A stretch of DNA of 64,000 bases, taken from positions 48,128 to 112,127 of the forward strand of contig NZ_JXDB01000006.1 in NCBI RefSeq assembly GCF_001281265.1. The letters are read 5' to 3'. The position numbers and the translations under genes were made by a program. Positions 24,819 through 29,062 of the stretch are shown here, piece after piece. The notes below the pieces were generated by a model, which was not told the DNA's origin, ran no database searches, and saw nothing but the letters and a program-made list of their open reading frames with translations. Each line of letters begins with the position of its first letter. The stretch's first letter is position 1. Source of the DNA: Apilactobacillus kunkeei DSM 12361 = ATCC 700308 (GTDB lineage: Bacteria > Bacillota > Bacilli > Lactobacillales > Lactobacillaceae).

Positions 24819-25286
24819 ATGCAAATTGATACATCTATTGTTAACAAGCTAATTGATGATCAAATCACCATAACCGGAGCAGAAAGCTTAACGGCAGGGA
24901 TGTTTCAATCCACCATTGGTGGAGTTCCCGGAGTTTCTGCTATCTTCTATGGTGGATTTGTTACTTATTCAAATGAGGCAAAGGCCAAGTTATTATCAAT
25001 TCCAATGGATGTAATTGATGAATATGGTGTTGTTTCTGAACAAGTGGCAATTTGGATGGCTAAACAATCCAAGCAAATCATGAATGTTGATGTAGGAGTT
25101 TCATTTACCGGTGTTGCCGGTCCTGATAGTTTGGAAGGCCAACCTGCAGGAACTGTATTTATCGGACTAGATTTCAAAGGAAATCAATTTGCAAAAGAAT
25201 TTCATTTTAGTGGCTCACGCCAAGAAGTGCGTGAACAGTCAGTGCAAGCCGCATTGAAAATGATTGAAAATGAGTATTCTAAATAA
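24819..25286 (+). CDS. CinA C-terminal domain protein (nicotinamide-nucleotide amidase, PncC-like)
   Basis: 155 residues covering only the CinA/PncC domain (ITGAESLTAGMF, GGFVTYSNEAK, VSFTGVAGPD). It probably deamidates NMN to nicotinate mononucleotide. CinA in most Firmicutes is over 400 residues with an N-terminal MoaB-like domain; here only 46 bases separate it from pgsA, so that domain is absent, not unannotated. The start is ATG at 24819; a nearby ATG at 24815 opens a four-codon frame. It retains its usual place before recA. Confidence 0.88.
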   Translation: MQIDTSIVNKLIDDQITITGAESLTAGMFQSTIGGVPGVSAIFYGGFVTYSNEAKAKLLSIPMDVIDEYGVVSEQVAIWMAKQSKQIMNVDVGVSFTGVAGPDSLEGQPAGTVFIGLDFKGNQFAKEFHFSGSRQEVREQSVQAALKMIENEYSK

Positions 25287-26474: not shown

Positions 26475-26503
26475 TTGACACTTTCATAACTAAAATTTAA
26501 AAT
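26475..26503 (+). promoter_or_regulatory. rny promoter
   Basis: TTGACA (26475-26480), a 17-base spacer and TAAAAT (26498-26503); a TATAAT overlaps just downstream at 26503-26508. The leader to the start codon is about 105 bases and includes a short GAACTA/TAGTTC inverted repeat. Confidence 0.65.
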
Positions 26504-26616
26504 ATAATAATGTACATTGAACTATTTATTTAGTTCGCAAAATGACTAATAAATCATTCAATGCGCAATTACCAAAAACTTAATTAAATTAGATGATGTG
26601 GAGGTGCAATAAGCCT

Positions 26617-28182
26617 ATGACTTATTTTTTACCTATAATCCTCGCAATCATCGCTGCTTTTGTAGTTGGTATCTCTGTGGGAATGTTTTCTAACAAGAAA
26701 ATTGTTGATAAGAAATTAACAAAGGCCCACATGAGTGCACAAGATATTTTGGAAGATGCTAAACGACAAGCTCAAACTTCAGCTAAGGAAGCAATTCTTG
26801 AAGCTAGAGAAAAGAGTAACCGTTATCGTTCAAACATCGAAAAAGAAATTAAGCAAAGACGAATTGAAGTTCAACGACAAGAAAATCGTCTAATCCAACG
26901 TGAAGATTCACTAGATCGTAAAGATGACGCTTTCGATAAGCGTGAAGATTCATTGAATAGACGCGAAGAAAAGCTTAATTCAAACCAAAAGAAACTTGAA
27001 CAAAAGCAACAGCAAGCTGATATGCTAGTTAAACAACGTCAAGATGAGTTAGAACGTATCTCTTCACTTTCTCAAGAAGAAGCACAAGAGCTAATTATTA
27101 ACGAAACAAAGAAAGAATTATCTGACGAACGTGCCAAGATGGTTAAAGATAGTTATAACTTAGCTCGTAAGGAATCTTCTGAGAATGCCAAGAATCTAGT
27201 TATTGAAGCGATTCAACAAAGTGCTGCTGATATCGTATCTGAAACCACAGTTTCAGTTGTTAACCTACCTAATGATGATATGAAAGGTCGTATCATCGGA
27301 CGCGAAGGTAGAAACATCAGAACATTTGAAACCTTAACAGGGATTGATTTGGTTATTGATGATACCCCAGAAGCAGTTGTGCTAAGTGGATTTGATCCAA
27401 TTAGAAGAGAAGTTGCCAAGATGGCACTTGAAAGTCTAATTAAGGATGGTCGTATTCACCCAGCTCGAATCGAAGAAATGGTAGATAAGAGTCGTCGAGA
27501 ACTTGATGAAAAGATTCAAGAAATTGGTGAAGAAACAGTATTTGATTTAGGAATTCATTCATTGAGTCCTGAAATGATTATGATGATTGGTAAATTGAAG
27601 TTCAAGATTTACCATGGTCGTAATGTTTTGAGCCATTCTATTGAAGTTGCGAAGTTGTCAGGTGTCTTAGCCGCAGAATTAGGCGAAGATGTCGTATTAG
27701 CAAAACGCGCAGGATTGTTGCACGAAATTGGTCGCTCTGCAGATAATGAAACAGAAGGTTCTCACATTGACCTTGGTGTTGACTTAGCCAAGAAGTTCAA
27801 AGAAAGTCCAGTTGTTATTGACTCAATTGCAGCCGATAATGAAGACAGTGAACCTAATTACATCATTTCTGAATTAGTTAACATCGCAAACAAGATTGCG
27901 ATTGCTAGACCAGGTGCAAAGAGTAAATCTCTTGAAAGCTTTGTTCATCGTCTAGAAAGTTTGGAAACAATTAGTGATAGCTTCGAAGAAGTAAACAAGA
28001 GCTACGCAATTCAAGCCGGACGAGAAATTAGAGTGATTGTAAAGCCAGAAAAAGTTTCTGATACTCAAGCAGTTGTTTTAGCTAGAGATATTAAAAATAA
28101 GATTGAAGAGGATATGGAATATCCTGGTCATATCAAGGTTACAATTATTAGAGAAGTAAGATCAATCGAATATGCAAAATAA
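26617..28182 (+). CDS. rny: Ribonuclease Y with degenerate HD catalytic domain
   Basis: 521 residues. An N-terminal membrane helix, a long charged coiled coil (about 30-190) and the KH motif [12 protein letters not shown] are standard. The HD domain is not: the canonical LLHDIGK reads LLHEIGR (His369-Glu370), the downstream SHHGD reads ADNED (Asp407-Asn408), and the later metal aspartate position is Asn425. The first histidine (His340) and the C-terminal fold are kept, so the protein is intact but probably lacks endonuclease activity. GGAGGTG precedes the ATG at 26617. It is not frameshifted, and ymdB follows. Confidence 0.93.
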
Positions 28183-28210
28183 AAAAAGGGCTTTTGCCCT
28201 TTTTTATTTT
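28181..28210 (+). terminator. Rho-independent terminator after rny
   Basis: AAAAAAAGGGC, TTTT loop, then GCCCTTTTTT. Confidence 0.9.
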
Positions 28211-28261
28211 ATGTAAAACGATGTAAAATAGTATATATATAATAATGAATTGAGGACGAAA

Positions 28262-29062
28262 ATGAGAATACTATTTTTAGGTGACGTAGTAGGTAACTTG
28301 GGGGTAGATATGGTAAGCAAATATCTACCAATTCTAAAAAGAGACTACAAGCCACAGGTAACGATTGTAAATGGTGAAAACTCAACATCATTTGGTCGCG
28401 GAATTAATAAAAAAGTATATAAACAAATTATGAGTGCAGGGACTGACGTAATTACTTTAGGAAACCATGCATGGAATAACGAAGAAATCTTCGATTTTAT
28501 CGATGATACCAAAAAATTAGTACGTCCTCTTAATTATCCTGGTAAGGATGTTCCAGGTAGTGGATATACAATTATTAACGTTAATAATAAGAAGTTGGCG
28601 GTTGTTAATTTACAAGGAAGAATCTTTATTGATCCAATCGATGATCCTTTCCAAAAGATTGACGAACTTATCAGTGAAATTAAAAAAGAAGCAGATGCAA
28701 TTTTTGTGGATTTTCACGCAGAAACAACCAGTGAGAAGAAAGCAATGGGAATGTATCTAGATGGACAAATTTCTGCGATTGTAGGAACTCATACCCATGT
28801 GCAGACCAATGATAACCAAATTCTAAAAAACGGCACAGCGTTCATTTCTGACGTTGGAATGTGTGGACCGTTTGATAGTGTCTTAGGAATGAAGTATGAA
28901 AACATCATTCATCGTTTCATTACCCAACGTCCAACTAGATTTGAAGTTGAAGAAAAGGGACGTGGAATCGTCTCCGGATGTGTTATCGATTTAAGAGATG
29001 ATGGCACTGCCAGATCTATTGAAAAAATATTAATTGATCCAAATCACCCATACAAAGGTTAG
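28262..29062 (+). CDS. ymdB: YmdB-type metallophosphoesterase (2',3'-cyclic nucleotide phosphodiesterase)
   Basis: 266 residues. The metal ligands of the family are all visible: GDVVG near the N-terminus, NGEN, GNHAW, DFHAE and GTHTHV. In Bacillus YmdB hydrolyses cyclic nucleotides, controls sporulation/biofilm decisions and binds RNase Y. The start is ATG at 28262 with a weak GAGG site; an in-frame TTG at 28250 is less likely. It follows rny after a terminator and precedes mutS by 23 bases. Confidence 0.92.

Follow-up and report, generated by a model that had tools for sequence, protein, structure and literature searches.

Ribonuclease (RNase) Y is the main initiator of messenger RNA (mRNA) decay in many Firmicutes. 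In Bacillus subtilis it is quasi-essential for mRNA homeostasis (PMC8266666). The 64,000-nucleotide stretch of the Apilactobacillus kunkeei DSM 12361 genome analysed here (contig NZ_JXDB01000006.1, positions 48,128 to 112,127, termed the window) carries at 26617..28182, on the forward strand, an rny gene whose KH domain is intact and whose HD metal site is lost. In this study, a second RNase Y gene with an intact HD site and a degenerate KH domain (copy B) was identified in the same genome, and its pairing with the window gene (copy A) was traced through the family Lactobacillaceae. We propose that A and B probably form a single heteromeric RNase Y at the membrane, in which binding of RNA would fall to A and cleavage to B.

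An altered HD site and a second RNase Y gene

The first-pass annotation, made from the letters of the window, described a full-length, in-frame RNase Y with membrane helix, coiled coil and intact KH motif, in which ligands of the HD domain are replaced, and this description holds in every residue named. The open reading frame (26593-28182) is open, full length and in frame; the ATG at 26617, which gives a protein of 521 amino acids (aa), is likely the true start rather than 26593, because GGAGG at 26600..26604, the likely ribosome-binding site, falls within the longer frame. Against the curated RNase Y model TIGR03319 the protein scores 701 bits (cut-off 454.35), and Pfam matches were obtained to RNase_Y_N (PF12072), KH_1 (30.6 bits) and HD (49.2 bits). 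Hydropathy places an N-terminal membrane segment at 26626..26682, and long N-terminal helices with a predicted coiled coil span 26629..27249 by the structure model and RNase_Y_N. The KH domain (27238..27462), intact by the KH_1 match and by the conserved columns counted below, carries its GxxG loop as GREG (residues 228-231, 27298..27309). In the HD domain (27625..27912) the Pfam match persists, and the model and the column count place the domain likewise; the C-terminal domain (27913..28179), largely conserved in both copies, is a predicted dimerisation part according to models in the excerpted text of PMC9775385.

The HD site of canonical RNase Y reads H, H-D, H, H-H and D. The codons of copy A (521-aa numbering) give H340, the first metal ligand, which is kept (27634..27636), H369-E370 instead of the HD pair (27721..27726), the conserved histidine H383 (27763..27765), D407-N408 instead of HH (27835..27840) and N425 where the last ligand aspartate would stand (27889..27891). 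At the five ligands proper, H, H-D, H and D, the window gene therefore reads H, H-E, N and N. Sequencing error as the source was rejected, since the losses recur: E370, loss of the second histidine at position 408 and N425 are shared by copy A of 16/16 Apilactobacillus genomes, so that the change is clade-wide, which the first-pass annotation had proposed to check. Positions 407-408 read DN in 10 of these copies, DD in 3, and EN, ED and DI in 1 each, and H383 is kept in all 16. The same losses are found in the named records L003-L008, whose protein is 98-99% identical to copy A, some of them probably being the same assemblies as the surveyed genomes.

Copy B, also full length, lies on another contig (C2; L105 5847-7439) of this genome, which is 1.52 Mb in size and 99.96% complete. 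It scores 498.6 bits against TIGR03319, and its HD site is intact, with LLHDIGK, SHHGD and the last aspartate, and with a Pfam HD score of 61.4 bits, higher than that of copy A. Its KH motif reads KLIGKDEQHVR, with GKDE where copy A has GREG, and Pfam KH_1 gave no match to copy B at an expectation value (E) of 0.1. Both copies carry the membrane segment and a match to RNase_Y_N. The possibility that this genome has no RNase Y with an intact site was thus rejected. A second rny was the very observation that the first-pass annotation had named as counting against its conclusion, and the further claim that mRNA decay would have to rely on RNase J or RNase III is not supported; two RNase J genes over the cut-off and one RNase III gene were indeed found, with no sign of their replacing RNase Y.

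AlphaFold models of the two copies have an identical order of elements (predicted local distance difference test, pLDDT, 80.3 for A and 85.1 for B; predicted template modelling score, pTM, 0.50 for both). At the GxxG loop, copy A is modelled with two separate helices (220-227 and 231-241), and in copy B the corresponding helices are almost fused (215-222 and 224-236). Foldseek searches with both models returned HD proteins (2pq7, 3hc1 and PgpH HD domains) and KH domains with weak E-values, the single match per model at E <=0.001 being a glycyl-tRNA synthetase chain. Sequence searches of PDB gave partial HD, KH and coiled-coil matches only, and a profile alignment to 3hc1, although itself weak, agrees with the ligand columns.

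Crossed conservation of the KH and HD domains

Among 397 Lactobacillaceae genomes searched with an alignment of copies B (match at E 1e-60, counted by hand), 390 gave a match, with two or more copies in 105 and one copy in 285, and 7 gave none. By genus code, the two-copy genomes comprise 16 in g1, 12 in g5, 24 in g14, 24 in g16, 15 in g21, 10 in g43, 2 in g49, 1 in g51 and 1 in g53, that is, all sampled members of nine genera, which by matching to named proteins (g1 being Apilactobacillus) are Apilactobacillus, Pediococcus, Lentilactobacillus, Levilactobacillus, Secundilactobacillus, Fructilactobacillus, Nicoliella, Acetilactobacillus and Philodulcilactobacillus. The RNase Y model confirms the pairs, both copies being over the cut-off in 103 (copy A of G394 is split and copy B of G332 is a fragment). 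Two copies over the cut-off were found in 0/23 genomes of the order outside this family, and two full-length copies in 0/148 other genomes of the phylum, by which a general occurrence of two RNase Y copies in Firmicutes was rejected; within these 148, G460 and G476 hold gene pieces, most of them at contig ends, and five genomes had no match at E 1e-60. All seven sampled genomes of genus code g46 (G066, G101, G130, G155, G178, G200 and G220) lacked a match to the copy-B alignment at the same threshold and are probably without RNase Y.

Residues were read in 251 proteins of 145 genomes, with five ligands counted (H, H, D, H as the second of the HH pair, and D); single-copy states were read in 40 genomes (17 of the 285 in the family, and 23 in the order). 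All five ligands are intact in 40/40 single-copy proteins, in 26/26 outgroup loci and in 105/105 copies B, and in 7/105 copies A, namely two of Secundilactobacillus and five of Pediococcus. With every single-copy and outgroup protein read having the full set, the altered site of the window gene is no chance variation. No two-copy genome read has both copies HD-defective. The pairs form a series from both sites intact, in some Pediococcus and Secundilactobacillus, to 5/5 ligands lost in copy A of a Fructilactobacillus. One ligand is changed in copy A of 24/24 Levilactobacillus (both HH letters altered), 7/24 Lentilactobacillus, 6/7 altered Pediococcus and one Secundilactobacillus, three are changed in 16/16 Apilactobacillus, and three to five are lost in Fructilactobacillus, with replacements that vary among genera.

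The loss in the KH domain is crossed with that in the HD domain. The GxxG loop is present in all 105 readable copies A and lost in 53/105 copies B (kept in 52/105), and the arginine after it, R240 (529-aa numbering), occurs in 40/40 single-copy proteins and all 105 readable copies A, and in 0/105 copies B. Conserved columns, defined by >=95% identity of state in the 40 single-copy proteins, were scored as kept at >=90% of rows (102 A and 102 B); three assemblies, G394, G410 and G332, were omitted here as well as from the domain distances and the ratios of nonsynonymous to synonymous substitution rates (dN/dS). Of 48 conserved KH positions A keeps 43 and B 12, of 43 HD positions A keeps 19 and B 30, the C-terminal part is kept about alike (27/34 in A, 26/34 in B), and the N-terminal part is kept at 13/18 in A and 5/18 in B. 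Sixteen HD positions are lost in A but kept in B, among them the metal-site letters H348, D378, H391, H415, H416 and D433, and also K381 (529-aa numbering). The crossed KH/HD loss has a Fisher p = 5.8e-8, for rows that share ancestry and neighbouring columns that are non-independent.

Named database records of both copies are mostly labelled ribonuclease Y. Among 120 listed database RNase Y proteins, 45 are without the full ligand set, and those of the 45 named to genus belong to the nine genera; proteins lacking a genus name were assigned only when they matched a surveyed copy. Database protein P0073, canonical except for HY in place of HD, does not resemble copy A of any of the nine genera. 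Three further database proteins, P0182, P0141 and P0195, are unusual: one is an HD protein resembling RNase Y for which a PF00352 domain is precomputed, and the other two are RNase Y proteins of excessive length (674 and 692 aa), in one of which a KH part is repeated.

Selection, descent and gene surroundings

Purifying selection acts on copies A and B, the altered HD domain of A included. In Apilactobacillus, from pairs with an overall synonymous rate (dS) of 0.05-1.2, dN/dS of copy A is 0.077 overall, 0.078 in HD and 0.022 in KH (65/120 pairs), and that of copy B is 0.059 overall, 0.021 in HD and 0.051 in KH (28 pairs). By genus, copy A ranges over 0.026-0.077 overall and 0.004-0.022 in KH; for copy B, three pairs were available in g14, three in g43 and one in g5, and the g43 value of 0.283 (3 pairs) is out of line. 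On dN/dS, copy A as a pseudogene was rejected, and since purifying selection continues, a structural or RNA-binding role of A is likely. The first-pass annotation, which had suggested checking such selection, was therefore right about the lost site and is likely right about a retained role of what it called a probable catalytically dead scaffold, but the presence of copy B changes the conclusion for the cell.

The copy A frame is uninterrupted and full length in 102/105 two-copy genomes. The three exceptions, in which it is split or damaged, are assemblies of Lentilactobacillus/Secundilactobacillus, at L255 (G410), L256 (G394) and L257 (G332), whose estimated contamination is 7, 3 and 8%, respectively; assembly quality is the likely cause.

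Mean divergence in 15 chosen two-copy genomes is 0.118 (A) and 0.545 (B) for KH and 0.371 (A) and 0.347 (B) for HD, and in 17 single-copy genomes of the family 0.166 for KH and 0.242 for HD, giving KH/HD ratios of 0.32 for A, 1.57 for B and 0.69 for single copies. Relative to the C-terminal part, KH divergence is 0.40 in A, 0.53 in single copies and 1.50 in B, and HD divergence is 1.25, 0.77 and 0.95, respectively. The tighter KH of A than of single-copy proteins is a trend only, as the genome sets differ in depth, while the contrast of A with B holds.

A tree of 124 rows (42/105 chosen two-copy genomes and all 40 single-copy genomes; quick method, root not inferred) places the A rows and the B rows each on one side of a branch, with support of 99.6 and 100 and broadly similar inner branching. 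This fits one duplication followed by parallel descent, with the certainty lowered by the long B branches. A duplication confined to Pediococcus, with its A and B as a clade, was rejected by the approximately unbiased test (p-AU 0.0073); given the long branches and the different locus of copy B in that genus, a separate Pediococcus origin would keep a small residual likelihood. Under parsimony with equal costs the HD state changes 3 times among A rows, and a hand count on the tree that allows no regain gives at least 5 losses of the HD site of A. The varied replacements, together with intact copies A in some Pediococcus and Secundilactobacillus, fit repeated loss, and because R240 is gone in all copies B while some copies A are intact, decay of KH in B probably came first.

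Copy A is flanked by recA, by a TIGR00282 metallophosphoesterase gene (28250-29062) and then by mutS, which is presumably the usual place of rny, the TIGR00282 gene being in what we take to be the ymdB position. On the forward strand, a promoter-like site, TTGACA-17-TAAAAT, lies upstream at 26475..26503; it is a weak signal resting on a consensus match, with 8 such sites found in the region and 6.4 expected. A terminator-like stem-loop, listed on both strands, follows at 28182..28205. Copy B also adjoins a phosphoesterase gene, which resembles 2',3'-cyclic-nucleotide phosphodiesterase/nucleotidase and scores below its family cut-off (L105 7497-9056). In 17 copy B loci from eight genera, an XRE-type gene adjoins, usually together with an alpha/beta-hydrolase gene, and a relative of the cyclic-nucleotide phosphodiesterase/nucleotidase stands on the other side in 16/17. 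In Pediococcus (6 loci) copy B sits in a different place, with a relative of that phosphodiesterase nearby in 2/6. Elsewhere in the window, at 24819-25286, a CinA-like gene of 155 aa matches only the C-terminal amidase part (positions 259-410 of 414).

A putative heteromeric enzyme and its alternatives

The conservation of C-terminal positions in both copies, the crossed KH/HD loss and the finding that no genome is defective in both of its HD sites together argue for a heteromer of A and B. RNase Y of B. subtilis is a dimer, with the coiled coil and the C-terminal domain as modelled interfaces (PMC9775385, in excerpt). Under this proposal, one duplication of the RNase Y gene would have produced A and B, the KH domain of B would have degenerated first, and B would then have relied on the KH of A within a mixed dimer, so that the HD site of A became redundant and could be lost repeatedly; the heteromer would start RNA decay with KH supplied by A and the active site by B. 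A stronger form of the proposal, for which we see even chances, is that much of the Lactobacillaceae has an RNase Y that works only as two subunits, the RNA-binding pseudonuclease A and the KH-defective nuclease B, each inadequate alone, after one duplication and repeated independent loss of the site of A.

On the other hand, several observations weigh against a heteromer. Complementary loss would also be expected if A and B worked separately as homodimers, and B keeps GxxG in 24/24 Levilactobacillus, 12/12 Pediococcus and 14/15 Secundilactobacillus; the KH fold of B is still predicted in the model, and B alone may bind RNA. Where a single ligand is changed, as in the Levilactobacillus, Lentilactobacillus and Pediococcus copies counted above, A might retain residual activity. 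The N-terminal part of B is far more diverged than that of A, which may weaken a shared coiled coil, and the C-terminal part diverges faster in B than in A in most genera. As related in the excerpt of PMC9775385, the C-terminal region of B. subtilis RNase Y did not interact with itself in an earlier two-hybrid study. Moreover, the frame of A is damaged in G394, G410 and G332, and the genes of A and B lie on different contigs rather than as operon neighbours.

The main rival places A and B in homodimers of their own: only B would work as RNase Y, and A would serve as an RNA-binding scaffold or would compete with B, protecting transcripts from it. Each copy could dimerise alone, as both keep the membrane segment, RNase_Y_N and most C-terminal positions, and B has every ligand in 105/105 genomes and the GxxG loop in about half; yet the KH of B is altered in all nine genera, with R240 gone throughout, which would be odd for a stand-alone enzyme, and shared use better explains why A keeps KH and loses HD. 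We regard this rival as unlikely. That A keeps catalysis, or has changed it to another metal set or substrate, draws on the conservative D to E change at residue 370, on H340, H369 and H383 being kept in Apilactobacillus, on the low dN/dS of the HD domain and on the one-ligand changes of some genera. It seems improbable, given that three of five ligands are changed in Apilactobacillus and three to five lost in Fructilactobacillus, and that relatives differ in the replacements (DN, DD, EN, ED, DI) with no new fixed site. The first-pass annotation had stated that substitution of the HD pair abolishes cleavage by the Bacillus enzyme; according to the excerpt of PMC10303841, a single HD mutation is nearly enough to abolish the activity of B. 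subtilis RNase Y, and by this analogy the lost residues would abolish cleavage by A. Hardly credible is a decaying A on its way to loss after a takeover by B: the lost HD site and the three damaged frames would suit it, but those frames sit in assemblies with some contamination, full-length frames prevail elsewhere, and selection is strong, above all in KH.

Both copies share with canonical RNase Y (B. subtilis Rny/YmdA; TIGR03319) the membrane segment, the order of KH, HD and C-terminal domains and scores over the curated cut-off, and copy A shares its gene place between recA and the TIGR00282 phosphoesterase gene. The canonical enzyme differs in having functional KH and HD in one chain, usually from one gene per genome, whereas here they are intact in different paralogues. 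A and B are a paralogue pair with one member catalytically defective by sequence, and the nearest known analogy to their predicted heteromer is RNase J1/J2 of Firmicutes, interacting paralogous decay RNases of which one is much less active and has a changed signature motif (PMC7864078, in excerpt); these differ in their metallo-beta-lactamase fold, and that excerpt does not describe RNA-binding and catalytic domains lost in opposite copies. Trypanosome enzyme-prozyme pairs and RNA-editing RNase III pairs likewise join an active enzyme with a dead paralogue in a heteromer (excerpts of PMC5201418, PMC3663545 and PMC9508840), but they are eukaryotic, belong to other families and were shown as complexes by experiment. 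A search of open-licence PMC texts found no account of paired or naturally dead RNase Y copies. The RNase Y family and the principle of pseudoenzymes are already known; what appears to be new is the split of RNase Y into two paralogues across nine genera.

The finding matters for annotation, in which both copies mostly carry the ribonuclease Y label although one of them probably cannot cut, and specialists in bacterial RNA decay would be surprised by it. To our knowledge, how the KH and HD parts cooperate in the RNase Y dimer has not been settled. In these genera, with well-known bacteria of food and of bees among them, the two functions have apparently been put on separate chains, and the intermediates are alive, so that one can test directly what KH does, whether a dimer needs both of its active sites and how a homodimer turns into a heteromer.
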